The notes beneath the pieces were generated by a model. The model did no database searches, was not told the DNA's origin, and saw nothing but the letters and a program-made list of their open reading frames with translations. Positions 10,381-19,919 of a DNA stretch of 35,626 bases are shown in pieces; position 1 is the stretch's first letter, and each line of letters begins with the position of its first letter. The stretch comes from Verrucomicrobiota bacterium (GTDB taxonomy: Bacteria; Verrucomicrobiota; Verrucomicrobiia; Methylacidiphilales; Verrucolacustridaceae). A program made the translations under genes and the position numbers. The stretch is from NCBI GenBank assembly GCA_009927835.1, contig RFMG01000249.1:1-35626 (forward strand), written 5' to 3'.

Positions 10381-10874
10381 AAAGATTCTTTCTCACGTTT
10401 CTCCTCCTCTTCAACACCACGCGTGGGGAAGACTCCCCTACCCCGCCCCCCTCCAACCTCTCGCCAACGAATTCCACGACCACCATCACCAGCGATTCGC
10501 TGGATTTGAACTTGGGCAAGAAAATGGGACGGAAACAAGGAGTGTTTCGTGGCAACGTCCAGGTCGATGAACCCAGGTTCAAGATGACTTCCAAGGAAAT
10601 GACGGTTTTTTTCGCTGAAAACGATGCGGTCGAATCCTTGGAGGCACGCGAGGACGTGGTCATCGAACGCAAGGACGGATCCAGCAAAACCTCCAGTGAG
10701 AAAGCCCTGTACGATATGAATGAAAAAAAGCTCACCCTCCTGAAGGTCGCTCGCCAACCCAAAGTCGTTTCCAAGGACAAAACCGTTTTTGCGGACAAGA
10801 TCATCCTCTACCCGGAAGAAGACAAGATGATGACGGAGGGGGCAAGCCGGGTGATGCTTCAGAAAGCACCCTGA
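10377..10874 (+). CDS. lptA: LptA/OstA-like periplasmic LPS transport protein
   Basis: From the ATG at 10377 (MKRFFLTFLLLFNTTRGEDS) the product is 165 residues with a signal peptide, so it is periplasmic. ITSDSLDLNLGKK, GVFRGNVQVDEPRFKMTSKEM, ESLEAREDVVIE, and KTSSEKALYDMNEKKLTL are the repeating strand pattern of the OstA/LptA jellyroll, which forms the filament carrying LPS across the periplasm. The start is in an ATGA overlap with lptC. The TGA stop (10872-10874) overlaps the proposed CTG start of lptB. The track start at 10308 is only an upstream extension into lptC. Confidence 0.85.
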   Translation: MKRFFLTFLLLFNTTRGEDSPTPPPSNLSPTNSTTTITSDSLDLNLGKKMGRKQGVFRGNVQVDEPRFKMTSKEMTVFFAENDAVESLEAREDVVIERKDGSSKTSSEKALYDMNEKKLTLLKVARQPKVVSKDKTVFADKIILYPEEDKMMTEGASRVMLQKAP

Positions 10875-11629
10875 GTTCGTCCACCCATTCCACACCCCCT
10901 TCGGGGGAACCCATACTGTCGTGTGAGGGTCTGGTCAAACGTTACGGCGAGCGAAACGTTGTCAACGGGGTGAATCTTAACATCAAGGCGGGAGAGGTGG
11001 TGGGATTGCTCGGACCCAACGGAGCCGGAAAAACAACGAGCTTCTACATGCTGGTTGGTTTGGTTCGTCCCACGGCAGGTTCGATTCGGTTTTCGGGCGA
11101 AGACGTGACGGGCATGCCCATGTACCGGCGTGCTCGTCGGGGAATCGGCTATCTTCCCCAGGAGGAGTCGATTTTTCGGCGCCTTACGGTGGAGGAAAAT
11201 CTCATGGCGATCCTGGAGACCCTGCCGATCACGGATCAGGAGCGCCAAGAGCGCTGCCATGAACTCCTGGTTGAGTTGGGCTTGGACAATTTGATCAAGA
11301 GCCATGCCATCCAGCTTTCGGGTGGAGAGAAGCGCCGTCTTGCCATTGCCCGTTGCCTGGTGACACGACCCAGTGTTCTTCTATTGGACGAGCCCTTCAG
11401 CGGGGTCGATCCACTGGCGGTCTACGACATCCAGCAAATCATCCTGACGATGCGTCGCAAAGGCATCGCCGTGCTGATCACCGACCACAATGTCAGGGAA
11501 ACCCTCTCGATTGTCAGTCGAGCTTACCTGATCTGCGAGGGAAAGGTCGAAAGCGAGGGAAATGCCGACTTTCTTATCAATGATCCCGTCGCCCGCGGCC
11601 TTTACCTTGGCCCCCGTTTTTCAATGTGA
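10871..11629 (+). CDS. lptB: LPS export ABC transporter ATP-binding protein, probable CTG start
   Basis: ABC ATPase of the LptB2FG complex that powers LPS extraction from the inner membrane. Motifs: Walker A GPNGAGKTT, Q-loop YLPQEE, signature LSGGEKRR, Walker B LLLDEPFSGVDP, H-loop ITDHNVRE. The track starts at a GTG at 10970, but homologous sequence clearly extends upstream (EPILSCEGLVKRYGERNVV aligns with the LptB N-terminus). That frame is open back to a TGA at 10721-10723 without any ATG, GTG or TTG. I therefore propose the CTG at 10871, which lies in a CTGA overlap with the lptA stop and gives 252 residues. A CTG at 10916 is a second option. Its partners LptF and LptG are not in the window. 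Confidence 0.92.
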   Translation: MSSSTHSTPPSGEPILSCEGLVKRYGERNVVNGVNLNIKAGEVVGLLGPNGAGKTTSFYMLVGLVRPTAGSIRFSGEDVTGMPMYRRARRGIGYLPQEESIFRRLTVEENLMAILETLPITDQERQERCHELLVELGLDNLIKSHAIQLSGGEKRRLAIARCLVTRPSVLLLDEPFSGVDPLAVYDIQQIILTMRRKGIAVLITDHNVRETLSIVSRAYLICEGKVESEGNADFLINDPVARGLYLGPRFSM

Positions 11630-12367: not shown

Positions 12368-12868
12368 ATGACAACCCGTGCCTACGCCAAGATCAACCTT
12401 GACCTACGTCTCGGCACCCGTCGTCCCGATGGTTATCATCCCATCGACACATTCCTTGTCCGCGTCAACGTGTTCGACACGCTTCACGCGGAGGTTACAG
12501 CCGACGGAAAATGCACCCTGATGATTGATGGCGACAGCCACCTCTCCTCTGGCCCGGATAACCTCGTCATTCGCGCCGCCCAGCTACTTCAGAGATCGGC
12601 CCCCCAAGGTGCGGGAGCCTCACTTCGGCTCGAAAAGAAGATTCCGCAAGGCGCCGGCCTTGGAGGCGGTAGCAGCGATGCCGCATCCGCACTTCTTTTA
12701 ATGCGAAAATTATGGAGAACAAACCACACGGATCGGGAGCTTGCTGACCTTGGGGCGAAGCTGGGTAGCGATGTGCCCTTTTTCTTGCAACCTCACGCAG
12801 CCCGTGCCACGGGCCGGGGAGAGATTCTTGAACCCGTTCCTTTGCAGCATTACCGTGGGCTCTTCTGA
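12368..12868 (+). CDS. ispE: 4-diphosphocytidyl-2-C-methyl-D-erythritol kinase, N-terminal part before an apparent frameshift
   Basis: IspE phosphorylates CDP-methylerythritol in the MEP isoprenoid pathway. This frame has the GHMP-kinase start AYAKINLDLRLG, the ATP-binding loop PQGAGLGGGSSDAASALL at residues 93-110, and LGSDVPFF with the catalytic Asp. It then stops at TGA 12866-12868 after LQHYRGLF. The correct continuation (WALLIHPGFPSP) lies in the -1 frame from 12856. One extra base near 12852-12858 (for instance in CC or G) would give an intact protein of about 287 residues, the normal length. As the gene is expected to be essential, a sequencing deletion is more likely than a pseudogene. 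Confidence 0.9.
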   Translation: MTTRAYAKINLDLRLGTRRPDGYHPIDTFLVRVNVFDTLHAEVTADGKCTLMIDGDSHLSSGPDNLVIRAAQLLQRSAPQGAGASLRLEKKIPQGAGLGGGSSDAASALLLMRKLWRTNHTDRELADLGAKLGSDVPFFLQPHAARATGRGEILEPVPLQHYRGLF

Positions 12869-13230
12869 TCCATCCAGGCTTCCCCTCCCCCACCGCCCAA
12901 GCCTACACCAACTACTCCAAGCAGCCTGGTCCGGGAAATGAGGGGCGACCCCTTCTGCTTACCCAGATGAATGGAAGTGCACTTACGATCCATCCCCGGA
13001 ACGATTTGGAGCGAGCCGTGGAGAGTCGCTTTCTTTGGATCCGAGCGGCTCGCGAGTGGCTCCAAATTCAGCCCAATGTCCTGGCCGCCCGAATGAGTGG
13101 GAGTGGCTCCACCGTCTTTGCCATTTTAAATTCGGAAGTGGAGGCGGTTCGTGTGGCGGAAGCTGCACGGACACACCTTGGGAACGAGGCTTGGATGAAG
13201 GTCGCCCAGTTGATCAGCGGACTGGAGTGA
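12856..13230 (+). CDS. ispE: IspE, C-terminal part in the shifted frame
   Basis: Continuation of ispE without a start of its own: WALLIHPGFPSPTAQAYTNY matches the central IspE segment, and AARMSGSGSTVFAI near the C-terminus is the third GHMP motif, forming the glycine-rich loop. The track reports only the piece after an internal ATG (12967), which would lack any ATP-binding loop. The 3' end stops two bases short of the end of the convergent rpsT. See the N-terminal entry for the frame break. Confidence 0.88.
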   Translation, partial: WALLIHPGFPSPTAQAYTNYSKQPGPGNEGRPLLLTQMNGSALTIHPRNDLERAVESRFLWIRAAREWLQIQPNVLAARMSGSGSTVFAILNSEVEAVRVAEAARTHLGNEAWMKVAQLISGLE

Positions 13231-14282: not shown

Positions 14283-15497
14283 ATGTCCTCTTTACGATCG
14301 GAGCTGGAGGCACGCATCCAGGTTTGGGCAAAAACCCATTTTCCACAATTGGGACCCGGTCCCTGGGTGCGACCTTGCGCCGACCCGCGGCATGGCCACT
14401 TCCAGACCCATCTTCCGATGGTGGCCGCAAAGCAAACCGGAGCCAATCCCCGTGAGCTCGCCACACGCCTCGCACAGGAGTGCCCCCCACCCCCTGATTG
14501 GTCGACTCCGGAAGTCGCAGGCAGCGGATTTGTTAACTTTCGTGTCAACCCTGAGGCCGTCGGAAAAGCGGTGGAGAAGCTTCGTCAGGATCCAAAACTG
14601 GGCATCCCCCATACACCCCAACCGGAGACGATCGTCGTGGACTTCAGTTCGCCCAACATTGCCAAAGCCATGCATGTGGGACACATCCGTTCGACCTTGC
14701 TTGGAGATTCCCTGTCTCGTCTTCTTTCTCGAATCGGCCACAAAGTCATTCGCATCAATCACTTGGGTGATTGGGGCACTCAGTTCGGGAAACTGCTCCT
14801 CGCCTACCGCAGTGCAGGACGCCCCCCCCTTGATCCCGACCGCTCCATCCAACAGCTGGAGGAATTTTACAAAAAAGGACACGAGGAGGCGGAATCAGAT
14901 CCCATCAAGATGGATGCGGCAAGGGCCGAGCTTGCCGCCCTACAGTCGGGCGAAGCCGAACGATTGAAGGATTGGCAACACTTTTGTCAGCGTTCAGGCG
15001 AACATTTTCATCAGATTTATCGCCGTTTGGGGGTCACCTTTGACCTCGAGAAGGGGGAGAGCTCCTACCACGACGAACTTCCTGGGATCGTGGAGGAGCT
15101 GTTGCACCTGAAAATTGCCACGATCAGCCAAGGGGCCGCTGTTGTTCAGAATCCGGTGATTTCCGAAGAACCCTTTCTTATCAGAAAATCGGACGGGGCT
15201 TTTCTCTATGGAACCACCGACCTTGCCGCTCTCCGTTCCCGCCTGAGAGACCTTCATGCAGACCGCATCATCTACGTCACGGATGGAAGACAACAACTTC
15301 ACTTTCGCTGGTTGTTCGACACGGCCCGAAAGTGGAATCAAAAAGCGGAGCTCGAGCACGTCTGGTTTGGAACGATTCTTGGGCCGGATCGCAAACCCCT
15401 CAAAGCCGGGATGGAACACCCATCAAGCTTGTCGATCTTCTGGACGAGGCAAAAGAGCGGGCAAAAAAGATCCTTCAGGAAAAACGTCCCGACGTAA
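14283..15497 (+). CDS. argS: Arginyl-tRNA synthetase, N-terminal part before an apparent frameshift
   Basis: Class I aminoacyl-tRNA synthetase charging tRNA-Arg. The frame carries the N-terminal Add-1 domain (SGFVNFRV), VVDFSSPNIAKAMHVGHIRST with the HIGH-like signature, NHLGDWGTQFGKLL, and FLYGTTDLAALRSR. Near the end it reaches WFGTILGPDRKPLK and then goes out of frame into 31 unrelated residues ending at 15497. The true continuation, SRDGTPIKLVDLLDEA, lies in the -1 frame from 15404. One more A in the AAA at 15402-15404 restores a 568-residue ArgRS. The break falls exactly at the KMSK-equivalent loop. Essential gene, so a sequencing deletion is the likely cause. Confidence 0.92.
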   Translation: MSSLRSELEARIQVWAKTHFPQLGPGPWVRPCADPRHGHFQTHLPMVAAKQTGANPRELATRLAQECPPPPDWSTPEVAGSGFVNFRVNPEAVGKAVEKLRQDPKLGIPHTPQPETIVVDFSSPNIAKAMHVGHIRSTLLGDSLSRLLSRIGHKVIRINHLGDWGTQFGKLLLAYRSAGRPPLDPDRSIQQLEEFYKKGHEEAESDPIKMDAARAELAALQSGEAERLKDWQHFCQRSGEHFHQIYRRLGVTFDLEKGESSYHDELPGIVEELLHLKIATISQGAAVVQNPVISEEPFLIRKSDGAFLYGTTDLAALRSRLRDLHADRIIYVTDGRQQLHFRWLFDTARKWNQKAELEHVWFGTILGPDRKPLKAGMEHPSSLSIFWTRQKSGQKRSFRKNVPT

Positions 15498-15988
15498 CCG
15501 GCCCTGCCCTGGAGGAGAAGGCAGAGCTTCTGGGAGTTGCCAGCCTGAAATACGCCGATCAGATGCCTGGTCGCAACCTTGACTATGTTTTCACATGGGA
15601 AAAGCTTCTCGCGTTCGATGGCAACACGGCCCCTTACATTCTCAATGCCTATGTGCGTTCGCGCTCGATTCTCAGGAAAGCGGGAATCCATTCTTCACCA
15701 AACCACTCCATCCTTCTTGAGAAACCTGAGGAGGAGGAGCTTTCGCGTCATCTGCTGCGATTGGGCGATATCGTTGAGTTGGCAGCCTCGGACCGGAAGC
15801 CTCACCATCTTTGCGGCTATCTCTTCGAAACAGCGGGTATGTTCCACCGGTTTTTTGAGGCATGCCCCGTCTTGCAGGCGGGTTCCGATCCCCTTCAAAA
15901 ATCCCGCCTCACCCTGGTGGGGCTAACTGGTGACATTCTTCGGGAAGGGCTTGGTCTATTGGGAATTTCAACGTTGGAAGAAATGTAA
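15404..15988 (+). CDS. argS: Arginyl-tRNA synthetase, C-terminal part in the shifted frame
   Basis: Continuation of argS in the -1 frame with no start codon of its own: SRDGTPIKLVDLLDEAKERAKK, VASLKYADQMPGRNLDYVFTWEKLLAFDGNTAPYI, then the anticodon-binding DALR domain ending LTLVGLTGDILREGLGLLGI. The track start at 15332 is an artefact upstream of the break. With the N-terminal piece it completes a full-length ArgRS. It converges on rsfS with a gap of about 22 bases. Confidence 0.92.
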   Translation, partial: SRDGTPIKLVDLLDEAKERAKKILQEKRPDVTGPALEEKAELLGVASLKYADQMPGRNLDYVFTWEKLLAFDGNTAPYILNAYVRSRSILRKAGIHSSPNHSILLEKPEEEELSRHLLRLGDIVELAASDRKPHHLCGYLFETAGMFHRFFEACPVLQAGSDPLQKSRLTLVGLTGDILREGLGLLGISTLEEM

Positions 15989-16010: not shown

Positions 16011-16355
16011 CTAATTCAGAACCTGATCGGCATCCCCCCAAAGATTCTCCAGCCGATAGAAGTTCCGCCGGTTGGAATGCATGACGTGAACCAGGACATC
16101 CCCGTAATCAAGGATCATCCATTGGCTGGAGGCCTGACCGGAGGAGCGAAACACTTTTCTTCCCGCCTCTCCCACCCCGCGTTCGATCTCACCTGCTATG
16201 GCTTTGAGCTGTGGCTCATTCTCGGCCGAAACGATGACGAAGAAATCAGCAGGCCCTCCCACCTTTCGCAGGTCCAAGACCAAAGGATCGATACCCTTCT
16301 TGTTGCCGGCAAGATGACGGCACAACAGGGCCAGATCACGCCCCTCTGGACTCAT
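16011..16355 (-). CDS. rsfS: Ribosomal silencing factor RsfS (Iojap family)
   Basis: A 114-residue protein with the DUF143/Iojap signature: VLDLRKVGGPADFFVIVSAEN, SQWMILDYGDVLVHVMHS and RRNFYRLENLWGDA. RsfS binds ribosomal protein L14 and blocks subunit joining in starvation. It overlaps nadD by ATGA, the very common nadD-rsfS arrangement. Here it is the last gene of a minus-strand run that begins with exopolysaccharide export genes. Confidence 0.95.
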   Translation of the reverse strand: MSPEGRDLALLCRHLAGNKKGIDPLVLDLRKVGGPADFFVIVSAENEPQLKAIAGEIERGVGEAGRKVFRSSGQASSQWMILDYGDVLVHVMHSNRRNFYRLENLWGDADQVLN

Positions 16356-16921
16356 CGGTAAAACCGACTCACTTGGATGCGTTTTTCAATCTCCGGGGGC
16401 ACCATGCCGCGAATCGAAAGTTTTTGCTTCAACCGTTGACGGATCTGGGTCGATGAAATGTCAAAACGCTCGGGAAGCACGCTCATCTTGACTGCTGTAC
16501 GGGGTCTGGGTGGGTTGGGTCTTGGGAAAACCAGAAAGTGCACAATACGGGAAAGTTTCTTGTGATCCTTCCATTGATGGAGAACTTTCCACTGATCGGA
16601 ACCCATGATCCAAAATAACTGAGCACCGGGATGCTTAAGACGCCAGCAGAGTGCAGTATCGACGGAATACGACAAGCCAGGACGCATGATTTCCCATGAT
16701 GACACCCTCGCCCACTTCTCCCCTGCCAACCCTGTCTTGAGCCATTGCAGCCTTTCCAAACTGGGTGCGATGGGTTGGGAGCTTTTCAAGGGGGACCGGG
16801 CACAGGGGAGATAAACCACCTCATCCAGACGGAATTTTTCTTTCGCCAGTCGCGCGATCAAAAAGTGCCCAAGGTGAAACGGGTCGAAACTTCCCCCAAA
16901 AAGGCCGATTCGTCTCCTCAG
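16352..16921 (-). CDS. nadD: Nicotinate-nucleotide adenylyltransferase, CTG start
   Basis: NadD adenylylates nicotinate mononucleotide in NAD synthesis. The track begins at residue 21 (MIARLAKEKF, ATT start), but the essential nucleotide-binding motif RIGLFGGSFDPFHLGH lies just upstream in the same frame. C-terminal ISSTQIRQRLK is the second family motif. Between that motif and the upstream in-frame TAA there is no ATG, GTG or TTG; the only plausible start is the CTG at 16921-16919, overlapping the stop of the OPX gene as CTGA, with GGAG six bases upstream. This gives 189 residues, a normal length. The start assignment is thus well supported by both motif and ribosome-binding site. Confidence 0.94.
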   Translation of the reverse strand: MRRRIGLFGGSFDPFHLGHFLIARLAKEKFRLDEVVYLPCARSPLKSSQPIAPSLERLQWLKTGLAGEKWARVSSWEIMRPGLSYSVDTALCWRLKHPGAQLFWIMGSDQWKVLHQWKDHKKLSRIVHFLVFPRPNPPRPRTAVKMSVLPERFDISSTQIRQRLKQKLSIRGMVPPEIEKRIQVSRFYR

Positions 16922-17619
16922 AAAATACTCCGGTCCACCTGAATCTTGTCGTTGGGCTTAAGGCGAATATCGCGACCCTGATCCGCCTGGATCTCCTTCG
17001 CATTAAACTCCTGCGTGACTCCCCCTTGCGTCAATCGGACACGACGGCGATTCGCAAAATCGGTAAAACCACCGCAGGCGGCCACAGCGCCCAAAGCTGT
17101 CAGATCCTTGGTGTAGGGAACCCGCTGAGGCATCCGGACCTCTCCAGTTACGTCGACAAAACGCTGCTCCTTCAGGTCCACGGTCACATTTGGATTGGTA
17201 AAGATCTCCTCTTTCAAGTAGGTCGTTTCAATCAGCTTTTTTAATTCCACCGTCGTTGTATTGGCAGCCATCAAGCTGCCGATATGCGGCATCGAGATTT
17301 TACCGCTCTCGTCGATCTTTACCTCGAAGATTCCTTGGTCTTGGGTTGGGACCCCGGTCAAACGAATGATCAAAGTATCTCCTCCTCGAAGCAGATCGCT
17401 TGTATCGATGCTCGCATCACGCGCGGGGGTTCCCTTTTGACCAGACATTGGATCTGTTGGGAGCACTGGATTGGCTGGCGCTGCTCCATTTCCAGAAAAA
17501 AGCTGATTGGTGTTGAGGATCGATTCAGAGGCTGTTCCGACGTTAATCGACTGCGCAGAAACACGAGAACACCCAATAAGAAAAAAGGTGAAAAAAAGAA
17601 CGTCTCGAGCCTGATACAT
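16918..17619 (-). CDS. Polysaccharide export (OPX/Wza-like) protein, short form
   Basis: A 233-residue exported protein. The N-terminus MYQARDVLFFTFFLIGC has a lipobox (LIGC, Cys17), so an outer-membrane-linked lipoprotein is likely; cleavage after VSA is an alternative. The Poly_export domain follows (LRGGDTLIIRLTGVP...FEVKIDESGKISMPHIG), then one SLBB-like domain (VTVDLKEQRFVDVTGEVRMPQRVPY). It is much shorter than E. coli Wza and lacks the C-terminal amphipathic helix that spans the outer membrane. Start: the track uses TTG at 17622; the ATG at 17619 overlaps the kinase stop as TGATG. Likely works with the co-transcribed tyrosine kinase and the beta-barrel protein. Confidence 0.88.
   Translation of the reverse strand: MYQARDVLFFTFFLIGCSRVSAQSINVGTASESILNTNQLFSGNGAAPANPVLPTDPMSGQKGTPARDASIDTSDLLRGGDTLIIRLTGVPTQDQGIFEVKIDESGKISMPHIGSLMAANTTTVELKKLIETTYLKEEIFTNPNVTVDLKEQRFVDVTGEVRMPQRVPYTKDLTALGAVAACGGFTDFANRRRVRLTQGGVTQEFNAKEIQADQGRDIRLKPNDKIQVDRSIF
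16919..16931 (-). promoter_or_regulatory. Shine-Dalgarno and CTG start of nadD
   Basis: Reading the minus strand, GGAG (16931-16928) is followed by six bases and then CTG (16921-16919), which overlaps the TGA stop of the upstream OPX gene. This site decides the start of nadD because the frame holds no standard start codon before the catalytic GGSFDPFHLGH motif. Confidence 0.75.
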
Positions 17620-19919
17620 CAAAATCGATCCTGCCCGTTGGGAGGGCGCACAAAGGTTATCTTGGGATTGAACTCGGCGTTTGGGACAGATGCCTCCACC
17701 ACTTCCTCACTGTTGGTTACGGATTGATCTTCAGGCGCCGCCGGGGCGACTCTCGCAGTGGATGTGCGTGGCGCGCCACCTCTTGGGGTTCGCTTTTTGT
17801 AACCGTACTGGGTGGAGTACCCGGCATAGTAGTAGTAGTTGTCGTCTGTTTTGATATTCACATTGTTGAGGATCACTCCAAATAGCTTACCTCCAACATC
17901 CTCAATCACGCGTTTTGCCCTTTGGGAGACGTTCCTTGGATAGCGCCTATGCTGGATCAAAAGTAGGGTCACATCCACTTCCTGACTAATAACAGAGGCA
18001 TCGCTGATACCAAGCACCGGTGGCGAATCAAACAGGACCACGTCATAGTTGGGTCGGCAGATATCCAGGAGCGATGCAATCCGTGCACGACTGAACCCGC
18101 CAAGATCCTCCGGTCCGAGATTTCCTGCAGTAAGAACTTCCATATTGGGAATCGATGTGGACTGGATCAGCTCATCCAAGGAGGCTTGCCCAGCCAAGTA
18201 CTCTCCAAGGCCCAAGGTGTTTTCGATCTTGAGAGCATTATGAATATTCGGCCTGCGAATATCGCCATCCACCATCAGAACCTTCATTCCACTCTGTGCA
18301 CAAACCCAACCAAGGTTGAACGTGGTGGTGGATTTGCCTTCACCCGGTCCCCCACTCAGCACGGTGATGGATCGGGCGGAGGAACGAGCTCCCGTGAGAT
18401 TCAACTTGGCACAAAGTATTCGATAGCCTTCGGCAAAACGCGAATTCGGATCATCCTGGGAGAGAAACTTTGCACCCTTCGGAATCACAGCCAGAACACT
18501 GACACCAAGATACCTTTCGACGTCATCCATCGTCTTGATGCTCGTATCCAGATATTCGATAAAGAATGCGAGGCTTAAGCCTAGAATAAGCCCGACAACC
18601 ATGCTTAACCCCAAATTTAACTTAAGATTTGGTTTTACGGGCCGGACTCCAGGCTCAGCTCGGTTCACCACCTGCACGGGTCTTGTCTCGATTCGGGACT
18701 CGACCGACTGCTGTCTGTACCGGGATTCCAAAACTTCAAGCAGTTGGCTCTGGGTCTCCAAATCCCGCCGAGCCTCATTGTAGGGTGCCAGACGATCTCC
18801 CCGGTCGGCCCGCAGCTGGGAGCGAAGCTCACTGACCTCTTTTTCCATGCTCTCCACCTTGGCCTGGGCAACACTGAGGTCGATTGACAAAGCCCTTCGG
18901 ATTCCACTCACCAGCTTGTTCAACTGATCCCTGCGCTCAGCGACAGCACGAATCGCAGCCTGCATTTCAGGATGCTTTTTCCCGTAGCCTTGTTTTTGCA
19001 TGCTCGCCACAACTTGCAGGGCTTGCAAATACTGCTGCTTGGTGGATGCGGTGGTGGAATCTTCCAGCTGGAGAGCCGGCAACGTAGATTCCAACTGCTC
19101 AATGGTCAGGTCTGCGACCTTATCCAGACGCACCTTGCGGGAAATCATGTCGGAACGAAGTTCACTCAAGGCAGCCTCTTTTCTCTGGATTTCCATGTCG
19201 GAGAGGGTGGTCGATTGCACCTGGGCGGTTGCACCCGGAAGCTCATCAATTTTCAGATCCCGCCTGAGGGTCTCAACTTTGGCAGCCGCTTCGCTCACCA
19301 GCTTCTTCTGCTTCTGAACCTCCCCATCCAGGACTTTCAACCCCGCATCACTTCGGCCGGTGATTTCACTCCTTCGGAACTCCTCATAAGCGTCCGTGAT
19401 GGAGTTGGCATACAGCGCCGCCTCCTCGGGATGCGTGCTTTGGCACACCACCTCGATCAGTTTCGTGTTTCGGAACGGCCTCACTTCCAGGTAGCTTTTT
19501 CGGAAAATCATGAAGGCTTGGTCGTCGCTAATGGAGCCTTCGGGCAGCTCCATTACTTTGCAAAGGCGGTTGGCTACCCCCAATTTCGTGATGACGGGAT
19601 AAAGGACTTTCTTGCTCTGAATCAACTCGAACTCGGTCTGGAAGAAGACTGGATCGAAGGAGTCAAACGAGGCTTGAAAAACCTGCAAATCGCGGTTCTC
19701 TTTCTCCACCCGCAACACAGCGGAGGATTCGTAAATCTTGGGCTGAAGCTTCGTGACCACAAACCCCGTGGCCATGACCAAAATCAGAATTGTAACCGAG
19801 GTTGGCCATCGATTTTTGATGACCCTCCACAAGTCATTAACATGAAACGAAGCCTCCTCGGAATTGGCTGTGGAGGCCGCATATCCGTAGGCAGGTGCTG
19901 GGGCAATGCTCTCGCTCAC
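17619..19919 (-). CDS. Wzc-type polysaccharide co-polymerase / BY-family tyrosine kinase
   Basis: A 766-residue inner-membrane protein. An N-terminal Wzz domain with a transmembrane segment (VTILILVMATGFVV) is followed by a long periplasmic coiled coil, a second membrane segment (LGLSMVVGLILGLSLAFFIEY), and a cytoplasmic BY-kinase domain. The latter has Walker A GGPGEGKSTTTFNLG, Walker A' VLMVDGDIRRP, Walker B VVLFDSPPVLG, and a C-terminal tyrosine cluster NYYYYAGYSTQYGY for autophosphorylation. Such proteins control chain length and export of exopolysaccharide or capsule together with the OPX protein. GTG start at 19919. About 50 further residues rich in Pro/Thr follow the tyrosine cluster. 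Confidence 0.95.
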   Translation of the reverse strand: MSESIAPAPAYGYAASTANSEEASFHVNDLWRVIKNRWPTSVTILILVMATGFVVTKLQPKIYESSAVLRVEKENRDLQVFQASFDSFDPVFFQTEFELIQSKKVLYPVITKLGVANRLCKVMELPEGSISDDQAFMIFRKSYLEVRPFRNTKLIEVVCQSTHPEEAALYANSITDAYEEFRRSEITGRSDAGLKVLDGEVQKQKKLVSEAAAKVETLRRDLKIDELPGATAQVQSTTLSDMEIQRKEAALSELRSDMISRKVRLDKVADLTIEQLESTLPALQLEDSTTASTKQQYLQALQVVASMQKQGYGKKHPEMQAAIRAVAERRDQLNKLVSGIRRALSIDLSVAQAKVESMEKEVSELRSQLRADRGDRLAPYNEARRDLETQSQLLEVLESRYRQQSVESRIETRPVQVVNRAEPGVRPVKPNLKLNLGLSMVVGLILGLSLAFFIEYLDTSIKTMDDVERYLGVSVLAVIPKGAKFLSQDDPNSRFAEGYRILCAKLNLTGARSSARSITVLSGGPGEGKSTTTFNLGWVCAQSGMKVLMVDGDIRRPNIHNALKIENTLGLGEYLAGQASLDELIQSTSIPNMEVLTAGNLGPEDLGGFSRARIASLLDICRPNYDVVLFDSPPVLGISDASVISQEVDVTLLLIQHRRYPRNVSQRAKRVIEDVGGKLFGVILNNVNIKTDDNYYYYAGYSTQYGYKKRTPRGGAPRTSTARVAPAAPEDQSVTNSEEVVEASVPNAEFNPKITFVRPPNGQDRF

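Follow-up and report, generated by a model that had tools for sequence, protein, structure and literature searches.

The window analysed here is a 35,626-nucleotide stretch of contig RFMG01000249.1 from a Verrucomicrobiota bacterium (assembly GCA_009927835.1; Methylacidiphilales, Verrucolacustridaceae). On its minus strand lies a series of overlapping genes that begins with a polysaccharide tyrosine kinase and continues through a polysaccharide export protein (OPX) to nadD and rsfS, and on its plus strand lie lptA and lptB. The features relevant to this report, with positions counted in the window, are as follows:

17619-19919, minus strand: Wzc-like polysaccharide tyrosine kinase, which opens the series and overlaps the start of OPX (TIGR01007 and sequence)
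16918-17622, minus strand: polysaccharide export protein OPX, the upstream partner in the overlap (PF02563, SLBB domains)
16958-16960, minus strand: in-frame TAA upstream of nadD (sequence)
16928-16931, minus strand: predicted GGAG Shine-Dalgarno motif within the OPX Arg-Ser codons, with a 6-nt spacer; sole invariant synonymous choice among 76 columns
16918-16921, minus strand: CTGA stop-start overlap (OPX TGA at 16920-16918), kept in form in 17 loci of the genus
16919-16921, minus strand: predicted CTG start codon of nadD, the sole in-frame candidate; of 17 genus genomes, 11 have CTG here and 6 have TTG
16352-16921, minus strand: nadD, nicotinate-nucleotide adenylyltransferase, 189 aa, with its CTG at 16921-16919 and its stop at 16354-16352 (TIGR00482, PF01467, translation)
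16011-16355, minus strand: rsfS, next gene downstream, whose ATG overlaps the nadD stop as ATGA (TIGR00090 and sequence)
10871-10873, plus strand: candidate CTG start of lptB, sharing a CTGA with the lptA stop at 10872-10874; the frame lacks an ordinary start both here and in genome G003 (TIGR04406)

Two other genes of the window are interrupted. The argS gene (14283-15988) has a frame break near 15400, where G003 has one continuous 587-codon ORF, and this split is probably an assembly or sequencing error; ispE (12368-13227) is broken near 12850 at a point that is intact in G003. Together, the two breaks suggest indel errors in the assembly.

NadD is an essential enzyme, and a genome search found it as a single copy in the 1.73-Mb assembly; a weak match to a second NadD was rejected because its ORF reads as CoaD by sequence. 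The nadD product scores 144.8 bits against TIGR00482 (cut-off 112.45), with profile positions 1-194 of 194 matched, also matches PF01467, and contains the nucleotidyltransferase motif GG[ST]FDPxHxGH as GGSFDPFHLGH, which is conserved in the genus. It is thus a full-length enzyme with the motif, like the NadD of other bacteria (TIGR00482), and differs from them in how its frame begins. Among 80 nadD loci sampled across bacteria, the other 79 have an in-frame ATG, GTG or TTG upstream of the motif, whereas the locus of this genus is the only one that lacks an ordinary start.

Read on the minus strand, OPX ends in GTG GAC CGG AGT ATT TTC TGA, while the nadD frame runs TAA GCC CAA CGA CAA GAT TCA GGT GGA CCG GAG TAT TTT CTG AGG AGA CGA ATC GGC CTT TTT and then enters GGSFDPFHLGH. 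Between the TAA at 16960-16958 and this motif, the nadD frame contains no ATG, GTG or TTG, and its single CTG, at 16921-16919, shares the bases TG with the OPX stop. The earliest ordinary start in the frame is a TTG at 16861, which lies past the active-site motif, and initiation at such inner codons would cost NadD its active site. As is expected of a CUG-initiated gene, no ATG, GTG or TTG could therefore yield the full conserved protein. The original prediction had described this frame as free of ordinary starts, with one CTG over the OPX TGA and GGAG six bases upstream, and that description is exact to the base.

The same prediction placed the nadD start at the CTG of the CTGA overlap and proposed comparing this codon in close relatives, where an ATG would have spoken against it. 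A search of 60 related genomes and 21 genomes of the genus, the genomes compared being metagenome-type assemblies, provided 18 usable nadD junctions. The OPX/nadD junction has the same form in 17 of the 18 genus loci, namely a 4-base overlap with the OPX TGA, and in these 17 genomes the OPX C-terminus reads ...VDRSIF. The start codon is CTG in 11 of them and TTG in 6, counts that come from related genomes and hence do not amount to 17 independent cases. Neither ATG nor GTG occurs at this position in any of the 17 same-genus overlaps, so the codon at the proposed start is CTG or TTG throughout and never ATG, and the comparison strongly supports the predicted start. Six relatives have TTG, an accepted start codon, at exactly this position, which identifies it as the start. 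The exception within the genus is locus L014, in which OPX ends in TAA, a TTG start follows three bases later, and OPX and nadD lie in the same frame. OPX and nadD are also neighbours in L019, from another family of the order; there they overlap as TTGA, GGAG is absent and NadD has a longer N-terminus. Initiation of nadD at CTG, or at TTG in relatives, within a stop-start overlap is thus well supported as a prediction from comparative sequence.

Further evidence comes from codon conservation upstream of the overlap. Over the last 120 OPX codons of the 17 genomes, 76 columns have an invariant amino acid with a degenerate codon choice, and the only one in which all 17 genomes use a single codon is the Arg CGG that supplies the GG of GGAG. 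At the remaining OPX positions with an invariant Arg, four or five codons are in use. The Ser that follows the conserved Arg is encoded by AGY in all genomes, and in L014, where the start is shifted, CGG has been lost and the Arg codon is CGA. This one frozen synonymous choice suggests that the predicted GGAG ribosome-binding site is probably under selection, and it constitutes the strongest evidence for putative initiation exactly at the overlap. A search of the 1.73-Mb assembly for a 16S gene carrying the anti-Shine-Dalgarno sequence found none, and an inspection of the junction for RNA structure found only a weak hairpin of five pairs, with no compensatory changes.

Coupling of translation through overlapping stop and start codons, usually with a Shine-Dalgarno motif, is an established process (PMC6728339). 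The OPX/nadD junction has its expected elements, with a stop and start overlapping as CTGA or TTGA in 17 of 18 genus loci and a motif in the upstream gene (GGAG, 6-nt spacer, frozen CGG). It resembles the described ATGA and TGATG termination-reinitiation pairs in its 4-nt overlap, its Shine-Dalgarno motif inside the upstream gene and its co-directed genes, but differs in that the start is ATG in those pairs and CTG or TTG here, with coupling predicted from sequence (PMC6728339). On the reading we favour, ribosomes that have just terminated OPX would translate nadD from the CTG of the overlap; the GGAG six bases upstream, which lies within the Arg-Ser codons of OPX, would hold them in place, and fMet-tRNA would start on the CUG, making Met the predicted first residue. 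The C-terminal Phe of OPX would confine the start to CTG or TTG, between which it would drift. We regard this scheme of GGAG-held termination-reinitiation, with a start drifting through the OPX Phe codon, as very probably correct, and the 4-nt overlap makes coupling of nadD to OPX translation likely.

The constraint on the start codon follows from the way in which the two reading frames share bases. The last OPX codon is Phe in all 17 overlap genomes, and its third base doubles as the initial base of the nadD start. Because this Phe is invariant, the only silent options are TTC|TGA, which gives CTG, and TTT|TGA, which gives TTG, while an ATG or GTG at the nadD start would require a change of the OPX Phe to Leu. 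On a tree of OPX and NadD, the state changed between CTG and TTG at least four times, two of these changes being forced by well-supported branches. The first base of the start appears to vary like the third base of any Phe codon, and, with a CTG:TTG ratio not significantly different from that of other fixed OPX Phe columns, the choice between CTG and TTG looks close to neutral.

It was also proposed originally that the CTG sets a low, upstream-dependent expression level. An effect of this kind is plausible, and in its stronger form the idea would be that CTG is selected rather than merely tolerated, either keeping NadD low or tying it to OPX synthesis. In E. coli, CUG does initiate only weakly (PMC11497404), and CTG outnumbers TTG by 11 to 6 even though TTC makes up 32% of the Phe codons in OPX. 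The excess over the other fixed OPX Phe columns (27:41) is not significant among these related genomes (Fisher p = 0.10), so that silent drift explains the CTG without a regulatory role, and repeated switching to and from TTG argues against a needed level. Selection for CTG is for these reasons an improbable, though not negligible, reading.

A far less probable alternative is initiation of nadD at a rare codon further in, for example the ATC at codon 5 (16909-16907); GAGGAG, from 16918, would then serve as the Shine-Dalgarno sequence, and the CTG would be an inner triplet. A few bacterial genes are known to start at ATT or ATC, and GAGGAG does lie a few bases before the ATC in the window; however, this motif is missing from the other genomes, and codon 5 reads ACG in the five genomes L008-L012. 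Within this clade, codons 3-8 of nadD differ at silent positions alone, as translated codons do, which places the start upstream of codon 3. Moreover, the conserved GGAG is spaced for the CTG and not for codon 5.

Less probable again is that nadD has no start of its own and is expressed as an OPX-NadD fusion through a -1 frameshift at the last OPX codon. In its favour, nadD is offset by -1 relative to the OPX frame, a tRNA-Phe paired with TTC might re-pair with TTT, and -1 shifts are known to be stimulated by an upstream Shine-Dalgarno-like sequence such as GGAG. Yet the slip codon is CTT instead of TTT in 4 of the 17 genomes, and in L014 the OPX TAA stands in the nadD frame with TTG right after it, so no frameshift could join the genes there. 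Since OPX has a signal-peptide-like N-terminus and would be exported, whereas NadD is cytoplasmic, a fusion of the two is unlikely. That a sequencing or assembly error deleted an ordinary nadD start deserves almost no credence, for although the argS and ispE breaks relative to G003 indicate that base errors do occur in this assembly, the relatives refute it with CTG at the same place in ten other genomes and TTG in six.

Initiation at CTG or TTG by ribosomes arriving from OPX, the preferred reading, has to be set against the rarity of CUG starts. CUG accounts for 0.024% of bacterial starts and yields 0.86% of the AUG output in E. coli (PMC11497404), which might be too little for an essential gene. 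A reconstruction over 36 genome groups recorded switches to CUG at 2 of 61,358 AUG, 1 of 5,080 GUG and 1 of 2,468 UUG starts (PMC5622118). Caution is also counselled by Caulobacter dnaA, in which a CUG is bound by initiation complexes in vitro, as seen in toeprints, but is unused in vivo (PMC8443254). The nadD case shares with CUG-initiated bacterial genes a CTG that is the sole possible start at the right place (PMC11497404; PMC5622118); unlike in those genes, this CTG is kept across a genus, belongs to an essential gene and alternates with TTG at a position that is silent in OPX. The apparent conservation of CTG in an essential gene is what is notable, the mechanism itself not being new. CUG is deemed a near-useless bacterial start, and an essential gene appears here to have tolerated it throughout a genus. 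The OPX/nadD junction may accordingly offer a natural test of how far termination-reinitiation offsets a poor start codon. In practical terms, gene callers limited to ATG, GTG and TTG would truncate NadD beyond its active site and perhaps LptB too.

The lptB gene provides a candidate second CTG start in the window. Its product scores 334.2 bits against TIGR04406 (cut-off 240), and its frame contains no ATG, GTG or TTG from the upstream stop until a GTG at 10970, inside the conserved N-terminus. The same arrangement is present in G003 (L357), where lptA ends in CCC TGA, a CTG stands in the lptB frame and there is no ordinary start. Because the Pro codon of the LptA end, CCC|TGA, is fourfold degenerate, and CCA|TGA would give ATGA, an ATG for lptB is one silent change away, yet both genomes keep CTG. 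The stretch from the CTG to GEPIL is poorly conserved (the junction includes the GGGGAACCCAT block), and a start at an ATA or ATC codon 14-15 codons in, preceded by GGGGAA, is possible. A CTG start of lptB is accordingly ambiguous on the sequence of two genomes. When non-ordinary starts were sought by eye in more distant genome pairs, nadD and lptB were the sole convincing cases among approximately 100 genes; there was much noise, and this census is not a genome-wide count. The pair G011 and G003 proved too similar for such a comparison, as wrong-frame ORFs passed.

The presence of two genes without an ordinary start, nadD and lptB, in one 35-kb window raises the idea of a lineage with relaxed start-codon discrimination, in which CTG would be a regular start at gene junctions, a suggestion that we consider doubtful. 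The initiator tRNA of the genus has the anticodon stem TCAGG-CTCATAA-CCTGA, in which A29-U41 replaces G29-C41, the first of the three G-C pairs (L216-L226), and this replacement was found in the 11 genus genomes whose initiator tRNA was read. A special initiator tRNA behind CTG use was considered and rejected: the A29-U41 gene is not specific to the genus, having a 100% match in another family of the order, and this pair alone therefore cannot explain the nadD CTG. In the initiator variant described as no longer discriminating against CUG, the altered pair is 30-40 (PMC11497404), and that pair is intact in the genus. A literature search on A29-U41 initiators returned nothing.

The initiator tRNA locus shows further peculiarities. 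Homing-endonuclease-like ORFs (MYQVYVLNN...KYIG), which read like GIY-YIG proteins, lie directly behind the initiator tRNA gene at L221 958-1535, L218 1540-1830, L223 1148-1306 and in L294, accompanied by repeated copies of the tRNA 3' end, and the arrangement looks like a mobile element. In addition, L220, L225 and L227 (minus strand) contain extra 5' halves of the initiator tRNA that extend up to the anticodon loop and are followed by a TCCCGCAATTGCGGGA-like hairpin; in several genomes, these extra halves sit near the intact gene.
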